Origin: an uncultured Bacteroidales bacterium
GTDB taxonomy: Bacteria > Bacteroidota > Bacteroidia > Bacteroidales > FEN-979
Reading direction: 5' to 3'
DNA: 64,000 bases
NCBI GenBank assembly: GCA_903887775.1
Contig: CAISRB010000010.1
Coordinates: 1 to 64,000, forward strand
Positions 50,310 to 60,801 of the stretch are shown in pieces (position 1 is the stretch's first letter; each line of letters begins with the position of its first letter). A model generated the notes under the pieces. It was not told the origin of the DNA. It made no database searches and saw nothing but the letters and a program-made list of their open reading frames with translations. The position numbers and the translations under genes were made by a program.

Positions 50310-51017
50310 ATGAACCTGTTTTTCAGCAATATTATTGAAGGCCAACTTATCAGGCTCGATGAGGTCGAATCAAAGCATTGCCTCAAAGTACTGAGGCTTC
50401 AAAAACACGACGCCATTCATATAACCGACGGGAAGGGAAATCTTTACGAAGCAGAAATCTCAGATACAGGATCACAGATGGTCGAAGCAACAATCATAAA
50501 AACCACTGTAATCCCTGCCAAACGTAATTTCAGGCTTCATATAGCTATGGCCCCAACTAAAAATTCAGACCGTTTTGAGTGGTTTGTTGAAAAAGCCACA
50601 GAAATTGGAATAGATGAGATCAGCCCGGTTTTCTGCGATCATTCGGAAAGAAACAAAGTCAACAATGAAAGGCTGCAAAAAATTCTGATTTCGGCGATGA
50701 AACAATCACTCAAAACGCAATTGCCCTGTCTGAATGAAGCAATCTTATTTAAAAACTTCATTGCCATGCCCCATACGGGCATCAAGCTCATTGCAAGCTG
50801 CCTCAACGGCAAGGAACAGGAAATACAGCATGCCTGCACCAGGGGGAATGAAGCAACAGTTCTGATCGGGCCTGAAGGCGATTTTTCGGAACAGGAAATC
50901 GAAGCTGCAGTTAAAGCAGGTTTTATACCGGTAAGCCTTGGCGAAAGCAGGCTGAGGACTGAAACAGCAGGGATATACGTAACAGCAGTTATAAACCTGA
51001 TTAACAGAAGTTTATAG
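50310..51017 (+). CDS. rsmE: 16S rRNA (uracil-1498-N3)-methyltransferase
   Basis: RsmE methylates U1498 of 16S rRNA. The 235-residue protein has an N-terminal PUA-like domain (about residues 1-70, SKHCLKVLRLQKHDAIHITDG) and a SPOUT domain with the trefoil knot: LIGPEGDFSEQEIEAA (about 190-205) and SLGESRLRTETAGIYV. The block FVEKATEIGIDEISPV is also typical. It follows the T9SS protein gene by 20 nt and is probably cotranscribed with it. Confidence 0.94.
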   Translation: MNLFFSNIIEGQLIRLDEVESKHCLKVLRLQKHDAIHITDGKGNLYEAEISDTGSQMVEATIIKTTVIPAKRNFRLHIAMAPTKNSDRFEWFVEKATEIGIDEISPVFCDHSERNKVNNERLQKILISAMKQSLKTQLPCLNEAILFKNFIAMPHTGIKLIASCLNGKEQEIQHACTRGNEATVLIGPEGDFSEQEIEAAVKAGFIPVSLGESRLRTETAGIYVTAVINLINRSL

Positions 51018-51024
51018 GGCGATC

Positions 51025-51705
51025 GTGATGACACAACCCATGATGAAAAACCGGAGTAAAATTTTATTGTTATGCATCCTGGCTTTCCCCTTCACATCAT
51101 TTTCGCAGGCTTCATACCAGATAGCTCTCCTGAAATACAATGGAGGGGGTGATTGGTACGCCAATCCAACCTCCCTTCCAAACCTTGTCAAATTTGCGAA
51201 TAAAAATCTTCAAACCAACATCAGCGAGGAGATTGCGACTATTGAAGCCGGGAATCCGGAGATCATGAATTATCCGTTTATTCATATGACAGGACATGGT
51301 AACGTGGTTTTCTCTGAGCAGGAAGCCCGGAACCTGAGAAAATACTTATTGGCAGGCGGTTTTCTGCATATCGACGACAATTACGGAATAGATAAGTTCA
51401 TCAGGCCGCAGTTAAAAAAAATATTCCCTGAGCTTGATCTCATTGAGTTACCTTTTTCTTACCCCATCTATCATCAGAAGTATGAGTTCCCGTCAGGATT
51501 ACCCAAAATACACGAGCACGACGGAAAACCCCCTCAGGGTTTCGGTTTGATCTGGGAAGGCCGGTTAATGGTGTTTTATTCCTATGAATGCGACCTGGGC
51601 GACGGATGGGAAGACCAGGAAGTGCACCACGACAGTGAACCTACGAGACTTAAAGCATTACAGATGGGGAGTAATCTTCTCAGTTACGTTTTCACTCTTA
51701 AGTAA
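51025..51705 (+). CDS. Secreted DUF4159 protein
   Basis: The 226-residue product has a signal peptide (cleavage near FTSFSQ); start at 51025 or at the Met six codons later (51043) gives the same mature protein. The DUF4159 domain fills the rest: ALLKYNGGGDWYANPTSLPNLV, MTGHGNVVFSEQEARNLRKYL, GGFLHIDDNYGID and LKALQMGSNLLSYVFTL. The fold is thought to resemble a glutamine-amidotransferase-like domain, but no activity is known to me. It precedes the Hdr-like operon by 25 nt. Confidence 0.86.
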   Translation: MMTQPMMKNRSKILLLCILAFPFTSFSQASYQIALLKYNGGGDWYANPTSLPNLVKFANKNLQTNISEEIATIEAGNPEIMNYPFIHMTGHGNVVFSEQEARNLRKYLLAGGFLHIDDNYGIDKFIRPQLKKIFPELDLIELPFSYPIYHQKYEFPSGLPKIHEHDGKPPQGFGLIWEGRLMVFYSYECDLGDGWEDQEVHHDSEPTRLKALQMGSNLLSYVFTLK

Positions 51706-51730: not shown

Positions 51731-52444
51731 ATGGGAGCTTTATACGAAAAACTGAGGAAGGATATACGTTTTGTTGAGGGCCTTAAGGCATGTCTTAACT
51801 GCGGAACATGCACGGCAATATGTCCGGCTGCAGAATTCTACAATTACCAGCCCCGGAAACTGGTCGACATTCTTCAGACCCGGGATGATGAAAAAATCGA
51901 GGAGCTGCTTAAAAGTGATACCATCTGGTACTGCGGCGAGTGTATGTCATGTGTTACCCGTTGTCCGAGGAATAACGCACCCGGGCTTCTGATCACTGCG
52001 TTGCGGTCATTATCCCAGGAAATGGGGTATTTTGTCGAATCCGAAAAGGGGCGTCAGCAGCTTGCCATTAAAAGAACCGTCGGCCACTGGATACTGAAAT
52101 ACGGATATTGCCTGTATCCTTCCCAGATCACACCCGAAAACCATCCCGAGCAGGGACCTGTATGGGAATGGGAATTCCAGAACCTTGAAAAGGTCATGGA
52201 ACGGCTTGGAGCCAACTATCAGAAGGCCGGCCCAGGCGTGCTCAGGGCTATCCCTCAGGAAGATCTTGATGAAATAAAAAAAATCTTTGATGAAACCGGA
52301 GGCACATCAAGGTTTGAAAAAATAGAATCCTTTTCAAGGCAGAAAGCTGAAGAAATGGGGATTCAGCTTGACGACAGCCTTCAGAACGACTATATCAAAC
52401 ACATTTATACTGCTGTCAATAAAGACCATACTACCGAATCATGA
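51731..52444 (+). CDS. HdrC-like iron-sulfur protein (first gene of an Hdr-like operon)
   Basis: From the ATG at 51731 the product has 237 residues (the frame is open upstream to 51584, but that part overlaps DUF4159). It has two [4Fe-4S] motifs: CLNCGTCTAICPA (about residues 22-34) and CGECMSCVTRCPR (about 67-79). These are as in HdrC, which passes electrons between the HdrA flavin and HdrB. The C-terminal 130 residues, with RTVGHWILKYGYCLYPSQITPE, are a longer extension than in methanogen HdrC. Its stop overlaps the HdrB-like start by four bases. Confidence 0.82.
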   Translation: MGALYEKLRKDIRFVEGLKACLNCGTCTAICPAAEFYNYQPRKLVDILQTRDDEKIEELLKSDTIWYCGECMSCVTRCPRNNAPGLLITALRSLSQEMGYFVESEKGRQQLAIKRTVGHWILKYGYCLYPSQITPENHPEQGPVWEWEFQNLEKVMERLGANYQKAGPGVLRAIPQEDLDEIKKIFDETGGTSRFEKIESFSRQKAEEMGIQLDDSLQNDYIKHIYTAVNKDHTTES

Positions 52445-53508
52445 AGCTCGAAGGGAAACGTCTGATCTGGAATGAATACCAGAAAGAAATCGCTGACGAT
52501 AACTACTTTTATGTACGAAGCTGTGTAAGGCAGAATTTCTTTCCTGCGGCCGAAAAAACTTTTCTCCGCTATATGAAGGAATTCGGGAAGAATGTTTTTG
52601 AGAATCCCTCCCATACAACCTGTTCAGGAATCGGATACCATTCCGATATTGTCCCGATCGAGACCGCCATGACCATGGTAGCCAGGCAGTTTGCATTGAT
52701 GACCGAGTCTGGTTATGAGAATTTTGTCACTTCCTGCATCACGAGTTTTGGCCTTTATACTGAAATACTTGACACCTGGCATCATTTTCCTGAGATTGAA
52801 GAAAAAATCAGGGTTCACCTTAGAAATGCCACGGGCAGGGAGTTTGTCAAACCCAAAAATCTTGCCCACGCAAGTGATGTGACTTTTAAACTCAGGAAGG
52901 AAATCAGCAAAGCCGGGAAATACAGGCTTGTCAACCAGAATACGGGAGAACCCATCCGTGTGGTTGAGCACATTGGATGTCATTATTCGAGGATGTTTCC
53001 GAGCAAAGGTGTCGGTGGCGCCGAATACCCTTACGTTCTTGTGGGTATGATCGAAGAATGGGGAGGCGAAGTAATCGATTATCCGGAACGCAGGCATTGC
53101 TGCGGATTTGGGTTCAGGCAGTATCTGATCAAAGCAAACAGGGGGTATTCGATTTCTGCCTCAAAGAAAAAATTTGAGTCGATGAAGCCCTATAAACCAG
53201 AGCTGATTCTCACGAACTGTCCCGGCTGCCCCATGTTTCTTGACCGCTGGCAGTATACCATATCGGAAATGGAAGGTATCACCTATGGGGAAAAAGGTCA
53301 GGGCATCCCGGTCCTGACTTACGAGGAACTGGCAGGCCTTATCCTTGGCTATGATCCATGGGATCTTGGTTTACAGGTTCACCAGGTGCCTGTTGAACCA
53401 CTTTTGGATAAAATCGGGATACCCTATGATCCGGAACGTAAATTCCTCGATAAAGACGAAAATTCAATCGGGAAACCAAAATCTCCTTCATTTCTGAAAT
53501 TTTACTGA
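52441..53508 (+). CDS. HdrB-like protein with one intact and one decayed CCG domain
   Basis: The 355-residue product has the two-CCG layout of HdrB, the site of heterodisulfide reduction in methanogens. The second module is intact: IGCHYSR, RRHCCGFGFR and TNCPGCPMF. The first is not: Cys28 is present, but the middle CCG is TCSG (Cys61 only) and the last CxxC is CITS (Cys99 only). So at most one noncubane [4Fe-4S] cluster is expected. Arginine- and tyrosine-rich tail regions lack known motifs. It overlaps the HdrC start by ATGA and is one nucleotide from the HdrA-like gene. Confidence 0.82.
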   Translation: MKLEGKRLIWNEYQKEIADDNYFYVRSCVRQNFFPAAEKTFLRYMKEFGKNVFENPSHTTCSGIGYHSDIVPIETAMTMVARQFALMTESGYENFVTSCITSFGLYTEILDTWHHFPEIEEKIRVHLRNATGREFVKPKNLAHASDVTFKLRKEISKAGKYRLVNQNTGEPIRVVEHIGCHYSRMFPSKGVGGAEYPYVLVGMIEEWGGEVIDYPERRHCCGFGFRQYLIKANRGYSISASKKKFESMKPYKPELILTNCPGCPMFLDRWQYTISEMEGITYGEKGQGIPVLTYEELAGLILGYDPWDLGLQVHQVPVEPLLDKIGIPYDPERKFLDKDENSIGKPKSPSFLKFY

Positions 53509-53509
53509 A

Positions 53510-54580
53510 ATGGAAAACTCAGTGATTGTCATAGGCGGCGGAATTTCAGGAATGACAGCTGCCGGTATGCTTGCCCTGCAAGGCCTCAGTGTGACCCTTC
53601 TCGAGAAAGAAAAAGAGACAGGGGGACATCTGGCCCGATGGGACCGCTTGTTCCCCGACCGCAGGAAAGCTTCCGAGGTACTTGACTTTGCGAGGGAAGG
53701 CATGAAACGGGTTAACCTCGTCACCGGTGTTACTGTTACAGACATCAGCAGGCAGGGCCGGGAATTTACAGTGGTCATAAATTCCCCAATCCCTAACCCC
53801 CAATCCCCAACTCCCGATCACGAAACCGTTCTTAAAGCCAGGGCCCTGCTCCTGGCTACCGGGTTTGACCTCTTCGAAGCCAGAAAGAAAGAGGAGTACG
53901 GGTATGGTATTTATAACAACGTGATCACATCCGCAGACCTTGAAGACAGATTTAAACTGAAAAAAGGGATCCTCACATCTGAAGGGAAGATCCCTGCCCG
54001 TATCGGGATTGTTCACTGTGTGGGCTCAAGGGATGAGAAAGTCGGGAACCTTTATTGTTCAAAAGTTTGCTGTGTTACAGGCGTGAAGCAGGCTATTGAA
54101 CTGAAGGAAATGCTTCCTGCTGCGGAGGTTTTTAATTTTTACATGGACCTGCGGATGTTCGATCGCCACTTTGAAGAGCTTTATTATGAGGCCCAGCAAA
54201 AATGGAATGTCAATTTTATCAGGGGACGTCTTTCGGAATGTGCAGAAAACCCGGATGGCTCGATCATTGTCAAAACCGAAGACACCCTTACAGGGAAACC
54301 GTTCAAAATTACTGTTGACCTTCTTGTACTGCTCACCGGCTTTGTACCCGCCGGGAGTACAGGTGACATTGCCGGCATGCTGGGCCTGGTAACCGGGACC
54401 GACGGTTTTATCAATTCTGCCGACAGCCATATCATGAACAATTCGACCGATATACCCGGAGTTTTTGTTGCCGGTGCTGTTAAAGGGCCGATATCAATCG
54501 GTGAAGCCATCGCTGATGCCCGGGCTGCTGCCATCCAGCTCGCAATTTATCTAAACTCACCCACACCTGCTGATGATTGA
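53510..54580 (+). CDS. Short HdrA/QmoA-like flavoprotein
   Basis: The 356-residue product is an FAD protein with the dinucleotide motif VIVIGGGISGMTAAGMLALQG at its N-terminus, ALLLATGFDLFEA, and the HdrA-type cluster motif HCVGSRDEKVGNLYCSKVCC (about residues 168-187). It lacks the extra ferredoxin domains and N-terminal part of methanogen HdrA (about 650 residues) and is close to QmoA in size. FAD re-binding motif near the end is VFVAGAVKGPISIGEAIADA. A Pro-rich segment PIPNPQSPTP comes from a 7-bp DNA repeat (53784-53818) inside the frame. Bifurcation cannot be assumed. Confidence 0.82.
   Translation: MENSVIVIGGGISGMTAAGMLALQGLSVTLLEKEKETGGHLARWDRLFPDRRKASEVLDFAREGMKRVNLVTGVTVTDISRQGREFTVVINSPIPNPQSPTPDHETVLKARALLLATGFDLFEARKKEEYGYGIYNNVITSADLEDRFKLKKGILTSEGKIPARIGIVHCVGSRDEKVGNLYCSKVCCVTGVKQAIELKEMLPAAEVFNFYMDLRMFDRHFEELYYEAQQKWNVNFIRGRLSECAENPDGSIIVKTEDTLTGKPFKITVDLLVLLTGFVPAGSTGDIAGMLGLVTGTDGFINSADSHIMNNSTDIPGVFVAGAVKGPISIGEAIADARAAAIQLAIYLNSPTPADD
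53784..53818 (+). repeat. Heptamer array CCCCAAT inside the HdrA-like coding region
   Basis: Five 7-bp units (CCCCAAT, CCCTAAC, CCCCAAT, CCCCAAC, TCCCGAT) lie in frame and encode a Pro/Asn/Ser-rich linker. This matches the period of the intergenic arrays. Confidence 0.75.
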
Positions 54581-54905
54581 TTTCGGATATACAATAACAA
54601 AAGACAGGCAGCTCGATTATGACCGGGGCGATATGCGCTATTACAGGCTGGTGCAGTCCCTCGAACCTTCAGTGGATGTTTGCATGGAATGCGGAAGCTG
54701 CACCGCCACCTGCTCAGCCGGACAGTTTACTGAATTTAACATACGAAAAGCACATACCCTTATTCGCAGGGGGAATACAGAATCGATCAAAGCTGAACTT
54801 AGAAAATGTATGTTTTGCGGGAAATGCCAGCTGGTTTGCCCGAGGGGAGTGAACCTGAGAAACCTGATCCTGGCAATGAACAGGGCTATTGAATTACTTG
54901 GATGA
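54573..54905 (+). CDS. Second, short HdrC-like ferredoxin
   Basis: The 110-residue product has two [4Fe-4S] motifs, CMECGSCTATCSA (about residues 38-50) and CMFCGKCQLVCPR (about 76-88), and little else. It fits the N-terminal part of HdrC. The start overlaps the HdrA-like end by 8 nt and the stop overlaps the next start by 4 nt, so the gene is tightly bound into the operon. It may link the flavoprotein to the membrane subunit. Confidence 0.82.
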   Translation: MIDFGYTITKDRQLDYDRGDMRYYRLVQSLEPSVDVCMECGSCTATCSAGQFTEFNIRKAHTLIRRGNTESIKAELRKCMFCGKCQLVCPRGVNLRNLILAMNRAIELLG

Positions 54906-56752
54906 TAAAATTTAATTTATTCGTTCTGCCTTTCAGCCTGGGACTTATTTATGTAGTCTACAGCATTGTCATTCATTATTACAGATGGATAAAGAGCTTG
55001 CCGGCAGTCGACAAAGTCAAACTGGCAAACGGCCTTCGTACACCTTCAAAAGTCCTAGCCTCGCTGAAAGAAATTTTCCTTGAAGGTCTGATCCACCGAA
55101 AGCTGTGGAAAAGAAACCCTTTACTCGGATACATGCATATGAGTTTTGCCCTTGGGTGGTTTCTCCTCATTGTCATGGGGAACCTGGAATCGAGGATATA
55201 TCACGGAGCATATATCAATGCCCCCTATTACCCGATATTTCTGAAGTTTTTTATTCATGACCGCCTTGTACTGTTTTTTGAAATATTCACAGTTCCTGCG
55301 TTTTTCCGCTTCATCATGGACTTCCTTTTGCTTTTTGTCCTGAGCGGTTTAGGGCTTGCACTTATTAAAAGGAAACAGTCGCAATGGTTCGGGCTGAAAC
55401 GTACAACCAACCACAGTTTCTTCGACCGCGTTGCCTTATCCTGTTTATGGATGATCTTTCCGTTGAGGCTGCTCGCCGAAAGCTATACTGCAGGCTATTT
55501 CGGAGGCGGAGGAGGGTTTCTCACGCAGAACCTCGGGAACCTGCTGATAAAAATAAGCCCGGGCCCGGCTGAAAGTATTGCATATATTTTCTGGTGGTCA
55601 TATTCCCTGGCCCTTGGCCTGTTCTTTATCATGATGCCTTATTCACGGTATATGCATATCCCTTCGGAACTGCTACTGATTATTTTCAGGCATTGCGGCA
55701 TACAACCAAAAAAATGGGGTTCGAGCTTCTCTGATCTTGAATTACATTCATGTTCGCGCTGCGGTGTCTGTATCGATGCCTGCCAGTTGAATTTCGCCGC
55801 CGGGATCAGCGATATACAAGCCATTTATTTAATCAGGGGCCAAAGAGATCAGTATGTTCCCGAAAATATTGCGATGACCTGCATGCTATGCGGCCGTTGC
55901 CAGGAAGCCTGCCCTGTTGGTATCAAAGTCGATTTGTTGAGGCTTATTAAAAGGAGGGAAATCGGTTCGGGACAGGTTTCCGATTTTTCTTACCTAACCC
56001 AGAGCTATCCCGGTTTTGCCGAGGTGGTATATTTTGCCGGTTGCATGTCGCATCTCACACCCTCCATTCACATAGCAATGGAAGGGATATTCAGGGAAGC
56101 CGGCGTAGACTACCTTTTTGTGGACCGTGGCGGGAGCACCTGCTGCGGAAGACCATTAATGCTTGCCGGGAAAGACAAACAGTCAAACGAACTGATTGAA
56201 TTCAATAAAACCCTGATCCGCCAGACCAGGGCCCGGCTTCTTGTTACATCCTGCCCTATCTGTTATAAGGTTTTCCGCGAGGAATACAACCTCCCTATCA
56301 GGATACAGCACCATTCCCAATATATTCTCGAACTGGTCAGGGAAGGAAAGATCGCCTTACAGAGCCAGCACCGGAAAGTCGTTTATCACGATCCCTGCGA
56401 CCTGGGCAGAGGAGGCAATGTTTATGATGCACCCAGAGAACTTCTTCGTAAAATATCAGACCTGATGCCCGTTGAAAAAGAATGTGCCGATGCGCTCTGT
56501 TGCGGCGGAAGCCTCGGGCTGATGAATACAACACTTCAGAAAAAAGATGAGGTTACGCGTAATGCACTTCAATTCCTTCTTGCCGGCAATCCGGATATTC
56601 TTGTAACAGCCTGCCCCCTCTGCAAGAAAACCTTCGTGAAGCATTCTAAAACCGAGGTCAGGGATATCGCCGAACTGGTTCATGACGCAATTCCAGGCCG
56701 CCAGATCCGTAAAATCATGGATCCTCAAAAAGCTGAAGCTGCTATTCCTTAA
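54902..56752 (+). CDS. Membrane HdrE/HdrD-like fusion with two CCG domains
   Basis: The 616-residue product begins with about six membrane helices (to about residue 265). His residues in or near helices ([26 protein letters not shown]) could bind b-type heme. Then come two [4Fe-4S] motifs, [13 protein letters not shown] and [13 protein letters not shown], and two CCG domains, both complete: [25 protein letters not shown]; and [24 protein letters not shown]. This resembles HdrD joined to a cytochrome-b-like part, as in DsrMK/HmeCD-like menaquinol enzymes. Its end overlaps the valS end tail to tail by 11 nt. Confidence 0.82.
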
Positions 56753-59381
56753 TGGATCGTATCTGCCCGTTAAGAACATCAATCCTTGCCTCTGCATCCG
56801 CTTTTTTCTTCTTTTCAGCATCCACGACCTTTGGAGAGGCATTATTTACAAAGTTCGCATTGTCAAGCTTCTTCATGACCGTTATGAGAAACCCCTGCTG
56901 GTATTTCAGTTCTTCCTGAAGCTTGATAAGCTCTTCTTCATGGTTGACGTTTTGTGACAACGGGATGAAACATTCGGTGGTTCCCACGATAAAAGAAACC
57001 GAATCAGCTGGTTTGTCAGAGGAATACTGCAAGCCACCCAGGTTACAAAGTTTGACAATAACATCATCAAAGTTACCTGCGGGGCTTTTGTTTTTATCAC
57101 TGCGGATGAATACTGAGATCTGTTCCTTCACAGGGATGTTTTTCCCGGATCTTACCGTCCTGACCGACATCACCAGCTCGCTCACAAACTGGAATTCCCC
57201 GATCAGAGACTCATTGATTAAGCCGGCCTGAGGCATGCTCGCAAGCATTATGGATTCCTTGCCCGAATTATGCAGAACATGAAAGATCTCTTCGGTAAGA
57301 AATGGCATGAAAGGGTGCATCAGCCTGATCAGTTTTTCGAAAAAACCCAGGGTGGCATCATAGGTTTTGCTGTCGATCGGTTGCTGGTAAGCCGGTTTGA
57401 CCATCTCAAGATACCAGGCACAGAAATCGTCCCAAACCAGTTTATAAACATCTCTCAGAGCCTCCGAAAGCCTGTATTTACTGAATTGCTCGTTGATATC
57501 AATCAGGGCCTTATTCAGCACAGAATCAAACCATTCAACCGACACCTGGCCTGATTTTGGCTGATCGAGGTCTGCATCAACCGTCCATCCCCTCACAAGG
57601 CGCATGGCATTCCATACCTTGTTGCAGAAATTCCTTCCCTGTTCAATCAGGTTGTCATCATAAAGCAGATCATTCCCTGCAGGGGAACACAGCAACATTC
57701 CCATGCGCACCGCGTCGGCACCGTATTTCCTGATCAGTTCTATCGGTTCGGGTGAATTACCAAGCGATTTTGACATTTTCCTGCCCTGCTTGTCACGTAC
57801 AATCCCGGTAAAATAAACATTTCTGAACGGAACCTCTTTACGATATAAAAGTCCGGCCATGATCATCCTGGCAACCCAGAAAAAAATGATTTCGGGAGCG
57901 GTTACGAGGTCAACCGTAGGGTAATAATAGTTTATGTCCTGATTATCAGGCTTCCTGATACCATCAAATACCGATATGGGCCAGAGCCATGAGGAAAACC
58001 AGGTATCCATCACATCCTCATCCTGCTTAAGCTCATCCTGAGTGACCGGGGGTTGGGCTTTGGGGGTCAGGGACTCTGCTTTTCGAAGGGCTTCTTCACG
58101 GGTTTTGGCAACGACGAAACGGCCGTCGGGGAGATACCAAGCCGGTATCCTTTGCCCCCACAGAAGTTGCCTGGAGATACACCAGTCATTCACATTTTCC
58201 ATCCAGTGCCTGTACATATTCTTGTACTTGGCAGGATAAAATTGTACAGTGTCATTTTCCACAACCTCAAGAGCCGGCTGCGCAAGTTCCTTCATCTTCA
58301 TGAACCACTGAACCGAGATCCTGGGTTCAATCACTTCATCGGTCCTTTCCGAATATCCGACTTTGTTCGTATAATTTTCTATCCTGACCAGCTGGCCTGC
58401 GGCATCAAGATCCTTCACGATCCTGTTCCTTACCTTGAACCTGTTTTCTCCGATATATAACTGCGCCGCTTCGCTCAGTGTACCATCCGGGTTAAACGTA
58501 TCGATCACCTCGAGATTATACTTAAGCCCAAGGTTATAGTCGGTAATATCGTGTGCAGGAGTTACTTTTAATGCTCCGGTACCGAATTCCCTGTCAACAT
58601 ATTCATCAAATATCATGGGGACCGGGCGGTTGATCAGGGGGACAAGGATCTTTTTGCCCTTCAGATGCCTGTACCTTTCATCTTCGGGGTGAACACAGAT
58701 AGCAGTATCTCCCAATATCGTTTCAGGCCTGGTTGTAGCGATGGTGATCCATTCATCCTGGTTGCCTTCAACCCTGTATTTCACAAAATAAAGTTTCGAC
58801 TGGACTTCCTTGTAAATCACCTCCTCGTCTGAAACTGCTGTCAGGGCCTTCGGATCCCAGTTGATCATGCGGGCCCCGCGGTAGATGAATCCTTTTTGAT
58901 ACAGGTCAATAAATACATCTATCACCGACTCATAGCGGGCTTCATCCATCGTAAAGCAGGTTCTCTCCCAGTCACAGGAAGCCCCTAGTTTCTTTAACTG
59001 CTCAAGGATAATGCCTCCGTGTTTTTCCTTCCATTCCCAGGCATATTGTAAAAATTCTTCCCGGCTGAGGCTTGATTTGTCAATGCCCTGTTCCCTGAGT
59101 TTTGCCACAACCTTGGCTTCAGTTGCGATGGATGCATGGTCGGTTCCCGGGACCCAGCATGCATTTTTCCCAAGCATTCGCGCACGCCGGACAAGGATGT
59201 CCTGAATCGTGTTATTAAGCATATGGCCCATATGCAGAACGCCGGTAACGTTAGGAGGCGGAATCACAATGCAGTATGGTTCCCTGTCATCAGGAACTGA
59301 CCGGAACATATGGTTTTCCATCCAGAAAGCGTACCATTTCTCTTCAACTCCGGACGGGTCGTATTTAGAAGCAATTTCCAT
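56742..59381 (-). CDS. valS: Valyl-tRNA synthetase
   Basis: ValRS charges tRNA-Val and edits mischarged Thr. From the ATG at 59381 the product has 879 residues; an ATG nine codons upstream (59408) overlaps the -7 box and is rejected. [17 protein letters not shown] is the family start. The class I signatures are HMGH ([14 protein letters not shown], about residues 43-56) and KMSKS ([14 protein letters not shown]). The C-terminus carries the coiled-coil arm ([17 protein letters not shown] to [15 protein letters not shown]). The gene ends within the Hdr membrane gene. Confidence 0.96.
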
Positions 59382-59405
59382 GAGATGCTTTTTGCAATCA
59401 GGGCG

Positions 59406-59413
59406 CAAAGGTA
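59406..59413 (-). promoter_or_regulatory. -7 promoter box for valS
   Basis: TACCTTTG followed by CGCCC on the minus strand, 24 nt before the ATG at 59381. Transcription would start near 59399. Confidence 0.5.
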
Positions 59414-60379: not shown

Positions 60380-60461
60380 AAAAGCGAAAAGCGAAAGGTG
60401 AAAAGCGAAATAAAATTGCGAAAGAAGAATCTGCCATTTTCGCCTTTCGCTTTTCGCTTTT
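60380..60461. repeat. Inverted AAAAGCG/CGCTTTT heptamer arms between trxA and the DUF58 gene
   Basis: The left arm (60380-60404) and right arm (60437-60461) can pair over 25 bp with one mismatch. The units are AAAAGCG, AAAGGTG and CGCCTTT, the same family as 27352-27517. The right arm abuts the trxA stop codon. Confidence 0.85.
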
Positions 60462-60778
60462 TAGATGTGTTTCTCTATCAAACTCTTATAGCTCGCCTTC
60501 GGGACTGCTCCAACCTGTTTATCTATTACTTCCCCGTTTTTAATATAAAGGACCGTCGGGATATTGCGTATTTTGTATTTTGCAGTGGTAACTGGATTTT
60601 CATCTACATTAAGCTCGCCTGCTACGATCCTGCCTTCATATTCAGTGGCCAGTTCATGTATGATAGGGCTCACCATACGACAAGGGCCGCACCATTCGGC
60701 AGAGAGATCAACAATAGCTAACTTATCGGATTTTTCAACCTTTTCAGCAAAATTGGAATCAGTGAATGTCTCAAACAT
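60461..60778 (-). CDS. trxA: Thioredoxin
   Basis: A 105-residue thioredoxin that keeps cytoplasmic thiols reduced. The active site is WCGPC (in LSAEWCGPCRMVSPI, about residues 29-33) and the cis-Pro is in RNIPTVLYIKNG. The ATG at 60778 is chosen; the one six codons earlier (60796) falls inside the -7 box. Length is normal. Confidence 0.95.
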   Translation of the reverse strand: MFETFTDSNFAEKVEKSDKLAIVDLSAEWCGPCRMVSPIIHELATEYEGRIVAGELNVDENPVTTAKYKIRNIPTVLYIKNGEVIDKQVGAVPKASYKSLIEKHI

Positions 60779-60793
60779 ATACGATTTTTTTTG

Positions 60794-60801
60794 CAAAATT
60801 A
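60794..60801 (-). promoter_or_regulatory. -7 promoter box for trxA
   Basis: TAATTTTG on the minus strand, 15 nt before the trxA ATG at 60778. Transcription would start near 60787. The box lies in the gap after dnaE, so trxA has its own promoter. Confidence 0.5.

Follow-up and report, generated by a model that had tools for sequence, protein, structure and literature searches.

A five-gene operon of the heterodisulfide reductase (Hdr) type was identified in 64,000 nucleotides of contig sequence from an uncultured Bacteroidales bacterium (FEN-979); this whole stretch is hereinafter referred to as the window. The operon encodes, in order, HdrC1 (C1), HdrB1 (B1 or B), a short HdrA (A), HdrC2 (C2), and an HdrED-like membrane subunit (DE). 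The five genes are a genuine unit and no chance arrangement, as their order is kept in relatives, and roughly one in three of the genomes sampled from the order, gut bacteria among them, carry the unit. Judging from the sequences, we favor, by somewhat more than an even chance, as the product of the operon a membrane-anchored oxidoreductase that would link a thiol/disulfide (or persulfide) couple to menaquinone, with a C1-B1-A core that is sister to the core of the sHdr system. No description of this Bacteroidales operon was recognized among the open-access papers listed, a coverage that leaves most subscription journals outside and is no proof of absence.

Gene content and conservation of the unit

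All five genes are encoded on the forward strand, with overlaps at three of the four junctions and a gap of 1 nucleotide at the fourth. HdrC1 (51731 to 52444), a dicluster [4Fe-4S] protein resembling sHdrC1, was recognized by Fer4_8, by the NCBIfam HdrC model (86.5 bits, far under the cut-off of 350), and by its cluster cysteines in the alignment; an in-frame ATG lies upstream at 51584, and the start that aligns with relatives is 51731. HdrB1 (52441 to 53508) matched CCG in Pfam (44 bits) and the NCBIfam HdrB model (131 bits, under the cut-off of 450), and this assignment was supported by an alignment, a tree, and an AlphaFold model. HdrA (53510 to 54580) is a short flavin adenine dinucleotide (FAD) protein with a CX12CX3CC cluster motif, identified by the motif, the tree, and PDB matches including sHdrA (6tjr); no ferredoxin domains were found in it by Pfam or in the PDB matches. 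HdrC2 (54573 to 54905) is a small dicluster ferredoxin of 110 residues (Pfam Fer4_9/Fer4_7). The HdrED-like fusion (54902 to 56752; 616 residues), assigned by Pfam, alignment, motif counts, and tree, has five to six hydrophobic segments within its first 245 residues, followed by Fer4_8, with two [4Fe-4S] sites, and two CCG domains. For none of the operon proteins did the NCBIfam score reach the curated cut-off of the model after which it is labelled. Open reading frames (ORFs) and Pfam/NCBIfam matches agreed with the initial annotation, which had read these genes as overlapping or nearly touching and had labelled their products, in order, HdrC-like, HdrB-like, short HdrA/QmoA-like flavoprotein, second HdrC-like ferredoxin, and membrane fusion; Pfam, the hydrophobic segments, and the alignment also bore out the two [4Fe-4S] and two CCG domains that it had assigned to the membrane protein.

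The distribution of the unit was surveyed in 247 genomes of the order, taken as Bacteroidales from named relatives. HdrB was found in 78 genomes, the membrane subunit in 77, and both in 76, and in 68 of these 76 the two genes lay on one strand in order, with a median gap between B and DE of 1408 bases. Homologs were linked and not scattered as single genes; such scattering is what the initial annotation had named as speaking against its reading. HdrB occurred without the membrane subunit in two genomes, one in which the contig ends inside A (G661) and one with an orphan-type copy (G484), and the membrane subunit occurred without HdrB only in G048, where a contig end cuts B. Among 61 near genomes, a hand count gave 34 carriers, which matched the short HdrA of the operon type at E 3.9e-79 or better, the next matches being at 1.8e-49 or worse. 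A, C2, and DE were consecutive in all 30 fetched loci, the window locus included; B was ahead of A in 28 of them, and DUF4159 preceded A in the remaining two.

At least 587 HdrB relatives were detected in a scan of named genomes. The best 80, which were kept, included Butyricimonas synergistica, metagenome-assembled genomes labelled Alistipes, Prolixibacteraceae, Rikenellaceae, and Lentimicrobiaceae. In a phylum-wide sample of 395 genomes, with few members of the window's order, three matched at E 1e-20: the source genome and two distant sHdr carriers.

Partial loci were also observed. At two loci (L126 in G025 and L207 in G519), A-C2-DE was present without neighboring C1-B, with B on other contigs; the sole B found in G519 was an orphan-type copy beside thioredoxin-type genes. 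Three loci of one genus (L127 in G037, L201 in G643, and L216 in G547) contained a B-A pair without C1, C2, or DE nearby, and DE was on another contig.

Cluster ligands and phylogenetic position

The first CCG site of HdrB1 is decayed: two of its five ligand cysteines are lost and C28, C61, and C99 are kept. The second CCG site is complete (C180, C220, C221, C260, and C263). Motif counts were made on 72 copies longer than 330 residues (73 in total) from the loci of the best-80 scan. At the first site, a single C stood where HdrB has CC in 70 of 72 copies, the CC pattern occurred in none of the 72, and CxxS replaced CxxC in every one; the second-site motifs NCPGC and IGCHY were present in 72/72 and a CCGFGF-type motif in 70/72. 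The HdrB label of the initial annotation holds, with the refinement that the first site lacks two of its five ligand cysteines. sHdrB1 shows a like decay of the first site (by eye), and in addition has DTGC in the second. The AlphaFold model of HdrB (mean pLDDT, the predicted local distance difference test score, 75) was closest to the HdrB structures 7bkb and 5odc, and the region around the second site was poorly modelled. For HdrA, the CX12CX3CC motif was found in 65 of 67 copies longer than 300 residues.

Both CCG sites of the membrane subunit have the five plus five cysteines of HdrD (C381, C414, C415, C451, and C454; C499, C533, C534, C571, and C574), which were invariant in 14/14 aligned sequences. 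Among 62 copies longer than 520 residues (69 in total), the first-site CC (CCGRP) was present in all 62 and the other CCG motifs in 56-60 by strict patterns. In the membrane part, H65, H79, and H252 were invariant in the alignment of 14, with a LGYMH-type histidine in 62/62 and R[YF][MT]HI in 59/62 copies; such conserved histidines are as expected for heme b, and may be its ligands. In EtfD, a Thr replaces one Hdr cysteine and a His serves as ligand, and its authors call the cluster non-catalytic (PMC13083937). Both substitutions were missing from the operon's membrane-subunit family, in which none of the 62 copies had the EtfD-type His at position x of an SCPxC motif. In contrast, a protein encoded beside EtfBA-like genes elsewhere in the source genome (L135) reads CTGD and CPHC.

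In the HdrA tree, the operon proteins and that of a cyanobacterium formed one group (100/97), which was joined by sHdrA (crystal structure 6tjr) with 92/91 support; when the Qmo rows of L152 were left out, the corresponding joins had 100/99 and 96/89. The whole group was apart from methanogen HdrA, bacterial HdrA, and QmoA. In this tree, QmoB covered just 14% of the columns. In the HdrB tree, a single clade (100/99), apart from the HdrB rows, contained the B of the operon together with cyanobacterial B1 and sHdrB1. The splits between operon A and the cyanobacterium (85/50) and the joint group of operon and cyanobacterial B (88/67) were weak. In the CCG tree, the membrane subunits were set apart as a separate clade (100/99), which lay in the half with EMO, sHdrC2B2, and DsrK. 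The HdrB/CCG tree, in which one row (L125_C2B2) had not been trimmed, drew a warning of long branches meeting, and its deep joins are therefore tentative. The trees place A and B of the operon beside sHdr, and the C1-B1-A core is read as sister to the sHdr core. The placement inside Qmo or DsrMK that the initial annotation had considered was not what we found, as A and DE fell outside both in the HdrA and CCG trees.

The cyanobacterial sequences come from a plasmid of Picosynechococcus sp. PCC 7003 (NZ_CP016476.1; L137), which carries C1-B1-A-C2-B2 and an FAD oxidoreductase whose best NCBIfam match was type III SQR, far below the cut-off; no lipoate-binding gene was annotated within the 19-kb stretch. 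By sequence, this plasmid cluster is the nearest relative found outside Bacteroidota, and the initial annotation had overlooked its comparable gene order. Identity of C1, B, and A was 42-50% to the cyanobacterial proteins and 27-35% to sHdr; HdrC1 had 49.5% identity to cyanobacterial C1 and 28.7% and 26.7% to two sHdrC1, and HdrC2 had 31% to cyanobacterial C2 and 24% to the C2 part of sHdrC2B2. For another cyanobacterium, hdr genes have been mentioned with no role given to them (PMC8002359).

The two distant matches of the phylum-wide sample belong to type II sHdr-like loci, which were used for comparison. L124 encodes an LbpA-like protein, C1, B1, A, H, a fused C2B2, two Etf-like proteins, and an EMO-type membrane protein; L125 is alike, with no recognizable H. 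Their Etf labels were given by eye, and the CCG, Fer4, and flavoprotein domains of several of the proteins were profile-checked. At both loci the EMO-type protein follows the Etf-like genes (L124:3031-5070 and L125:1321-3426), and in the CCG tree these proteins were sister to fused sHdrC2B2, which suggests an Etf route to quinone there.

Proposed electron path and competing explanations

Within the proposed oxidoreductase, B1 would be the likely soluble thiol head, exchanging electrons with a thiol or disulfide at its one complete noncubane-type CCG site. C1, the FAD of A, and C2 may act as an electron relay, and the last subunit would resemble a one-chain HdrED with a second, complete two-cluster disulfide site, from which electrons could reach menaquinone by way of two [4Fe-4S] clusters and then heme b. 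We infer complex formation, the cofactors, this path, and a thiol substrate; gene content, gene order, co-occurrence, ligand conservation, and tree position were observed as described above. The initial annotation had likewise proposed electron transfer between a thiol or disulfide partner and menaquinone, and the complete HdrD-type cysteines and the conserved histidines fit such a complex. The redox potential of most biological disulfides lies below that of menaquinone, and on these potentials transfer from a thiol or persulfide to menaquinone is the most likely direction, a view that we hold weakly.

Menaquinone markers were examined as a consistency check. A menA match (E 1e-15) was found in 33 of the 78 HdrB genomes, 26 above and 7 below the curated cut-off. 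Because menA was found in only 137/247 genomes overall, the source genome was negative, and 7 of the 33 matches were below the cut-off, MqnC was added as a second marker, in a search confined to the 45 HdrB genomes without menA and four menA-positive controls (0/4 matched). MqnC-type matches (E 1e-30) were obtained in 42 of the 45, 31 of them above the cut-off (hand count), and the source genome was above the curated cut-off. A marker was thus present in 75/78 HdrB genomes at loose and 57/78 at curated thresholds, which is consistent with the menaquinone link.

Several observations weigh against the proposed oxidoreductase. The markers do not discriminate carriers from non-carriers, as menA was also found in 104 of 169 genomes without HdrB, and neither menA nor MqnC matched in the HdrB genomes G037, G471, and G667. 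B and the membrane subunit were on separate contigs in six genomes (G037, G547, G643, G519, G567, and G667), and the gene order was altered in two, to C1-C2-DE-B-A in G510 and with the membrane subunit ahead of B in G611; a strict stoichiometry of the complex is therefore not guaranteed. No substrate or partner gene was consistently linked to the operon among the adjacent genes of the loci compared, and two thiol-type sites in one complex are left unexplained.

Soluble carriers were searched in the 34 carrier genomes. No GcvH/LbpA-type match was obtained in G040 and G054, two near-complete genomes with all five genes, and the other 32 had one to five GcvH-type matches, so that absence from the whole genome holds only for these two. 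A DsrC match was present in the source genome and none was found in 13 of the 34. Neither protein is therefore a general partner, and both were ruled out as obligatory ones.

The same complex running in reverse, with menaquinol as the donor for reducing a disulfide, polysulfide, or protein persulfide, seems rather unlikely. The complete HdrD-type two-cluster site would suit such a reductase, and, going by the names on their records, many carriers are probably anaerobic; nothing in the sequences speaks to the direction, and reduction would need energy or a high-potential substrate because most disulfides are more negative than menaquinone. We give a small chance to a flavin-based bifurcating or confurcating complex of ferredoxin, thiol, and menaquinone. 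It would account for the HdrA-family FAD domain with cluster cysteines and for the ferredoxin-like C1 and C2, but the ferredoxin domains of bifurcating HdrA are missing from A, which falls with sHdrA in the tree, and none of MvhD, Flx, hydrogenase, or formate dehydrogenase is encoded in the unit.

A true sHdr sulfur oxidation system with its lipoate-binding protein encoded elsewhere is very improbable, although A and B stand next to sHdr in the trees and the order C1-B1-A-C2 is common to both. LbpA, sHdrC2B2, and sHdrB3 are not in the operon, and two carriers lack any GcvH-type match, whereas all but a very few shdr genomes are reported to encode LbpA (PMC10332631); the identity to sHdr also falls under the 40% cut-off used in one published sHdr screen (PMC12345210). 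The absence of sHdrH is a weak point here: in the window, the overlap of A and C2 leaves no sHdrH gene between them, but the H query is a poor probe, as it found L124 alone and missed the second sHdr locus, L125. An EtfD/EMO-like or DsrMK-like electron conduit that receives its electrons from Etf or DsrC is the least probable of the explanations considered. The operon shares the EMO/EtfD domain plan and the broad half of the CCG tree common to EMO, sHdrC2B2, and DsrK, but no Etf-like gene was seen in the unit, the EtfD-type His is absent and CC is kept in 62/62, the source genome has a separate EtfBA-like plus EMO-type locus (labels by eye), and DsrC was lacking in 13/34 carriers.

Should the menaquinone-linked oxidoreductase be correct, close to one in three genomes sampled from the order (76/247), cultured gut genera such as Butyricimonas included, would hold an overlooked quinone-linked thiol enzyme. 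The sHdr core would be uncoupled from lipoate-bound sulfur oxidation, a plausible ancestor or sister state of the sHdr pathway would be revealed, and the thiol partner used by these anaerobes would become directly testable.

Neighboring genes, related loci, and known systems

Upstream of the operon, on the same strand, are a DUF4159 gene (51025 to 51705; Pfam), separated from HdrC1 by a gap of about 25 nucleotides, and a gene for RsmE (16S rRNA methyltransferase; 50310 to 51017; Pfam). Across 84 loci (L040-L123), the DUF4159 cluster was found in eight and the RsmE cluster in seven; DUF4159 is a neighbor in near relatives only, and both are outside the conserved unit. No neighbor family recurred widely, the largest cluster being present in 10/84 loci. 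As the initial annotation had stated, no MvhD, Flx, hydrogenase, or sulfur gene adjoins the operon in the window (by eye). A thioredoxin-like gene (60461-60796; label by eye) is encoded on the opposite strand 3.7 kb downstream, and the membrane-subunit gene overlaps by 11 bases a convergent ORF (56742-59408) that looks like valine-tRNA ligase. A promoter/terminator scan gave fewer promoter-like sites than in shuffles and is uninformative. Labels such as Etf, thioredoxin, and Tus were partly Pfam-checked and otherwise assigned by eye.

Twelve orphan C1-B or B copies were located away from A and DE (L116, L130, L200, L202-L206, and L208-L211). Nine were second copies in genomes with a linked operon copy, L200 and L211 were the only copies found in their genomes, and the genome of L116 was not searched. 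NifX-like, Mrp/MinD-type, or DUF134 genes were within 7 kb of eight of the 12 (tblastn, examples partly Pfam-checked). TusA, a sulfur transporter, and rhodaneses accompanied L206 (Pfam), a TrxR-like flavoprotein was near L200 and L209, and none of these NifX/MinD/Mrp/DUF134, Tus, or TrxR-type neighbors was found at L130 and L210. At the 90 operon-type loci, NifX, Mrp, MinD, or DUF134 matched at none (after hand reassignment), CoADR at three, and TrxR at one; the 90 include L068, L081, and L215, which have operon-type C1-B with A or DE not nearby. The motif rule had misplaced four operon copies (L074, L093, L094, and L099) and two orphans (L208 and L210), and since these six were reassigned by hand, the orphan class (n = 12) is partly defined by orphan position. 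The orphan neighbors hint at sulfur trafficking; this is the only hint at a substrate class, and it concerns mainly the paralog and not the operon. The orphan copies are possibly linked to orange-protein-like systems. A more tentative proposal is that the operon is a further Hdr-type respiratory branch beside HdrABC, HdrDE, and sHdr, that is, a lipoate-independent membrane complex that in Bacteroidales would exchange electrons, in either direction, between a low-molecular thiol or a protein-bound persulfide and menaquinone, and whose C1-B1 might be an exchangeable thiol head reused by the NifX/MinD (orange-protein-like) and Tus/rhodanese/thioredoxin orphans.

Several further Hdr clusters occur elsewhere in the source genome. 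L131 (G000:C30) contains TusA-like, MvhD-like, HdrA/QmoA-like, and QmoC-like genes, and L132 (G000:C8) contains DsrE-like, TusA-like, MvhD-like, and two HdrA-like genes (several labels by eye); some 5-10 kb from the latter, C8 also has a DsrC match. In L133 (G000:C11), an apparent NiFe hydrogenase is clustered with MvhD-like, HdrA-like, and QmoC-like genes (mostly by eye). In addition, a plasmid of A. ferrooxidans (NZ_CP040512.1; L138) encodes an sHdrB1-like protein, a GcvH-annotated protein, two hemerythrin-domain proteins, and a globin, with no further Hdr gene annotated in the 21-kb stretch.

Among the known systems, QmoABC and DsrMK tie an HdrA-like flavoprotein or a CCG protein to a membrane cytochrome. 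Operon A and DE group inside neither Chlorobia-type QmoABC (L152) nor DsrMK (L146 and L147): A does not fall with QmoA, the qmoC model scored C1 at 52 bits (cut-off 300) and had no listed match to DE, the DsrK model gave 62 bits (cut-off 400), and DsrK was on a separate long branch. EtfD/EMO (PDB 9ojn; L135) is similar in that a membrane domain, two [4Fe-4S] clusters, and two CCG domains are joined in a single chain, but the operon has neither linked etfAB nor the Thr and His that stand in EtfD for Hdr-type ligands. The last subunit shares its domain plan and its complete double CCG site with HdrDE, which contains heme b and Fe-S clusters and reduces CoM-S-S-CoB; coenzymes M and B are not expected in Bacteroidales. 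HdrDE is also described in PMC13083937. Unlike HdrDE, whose sequences were outside the tree, the operon version is a single-chain fusion whose gene stands with those of an HdrA/HdrB/HdrC core. The PCC 7003 plasmid resembles the operon in its C1-B1-A-C2-B2 order, in the identity of C1, B, and A, and in having no annotated lipoate-binding gene, and differs in a separate soluble B2 and in an FAD oxidoreductase in place of the cytochrome b domain.

The type I sHdr core is reported as shdrC1B1AHC2B2 in one cluster and type II as shdrC1B1AHB3 with etfAB (PMC11582611). The operon has syntenic C1, B1, and A by order and trees, albeit at the low identity given above, and is like sHdr C1-B1-A-(H)-C2-B2 in its gene order, its short HdrA, its HdrB1 with a decayed first CCG site, and its sister position in both trees. 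It differs in that B1 retains NCPGC where sHdrB1 has DTGC, that no LbpA, B2/B3, Etf-like, or lipoate genes are in the operon, and that a membrane subunit is inside the unit; a short C2 is present, and the place of soluble B2 is taken by the membrane fusion, which groups apart from HdrB-type proteins. The HdrABC and HdrDE of methanogens, with which the initial annotation had compared the operon, remain apt in that it is hybrid-like, but the closest characterized system, which that comparison missed, is sHdr. From its sequences, then, the operon would work like a hybrid of HdrABC and HdrDE that stands outside the sHdr core gene sets and their near-universal LbpA, as a sister to the sHdr system.

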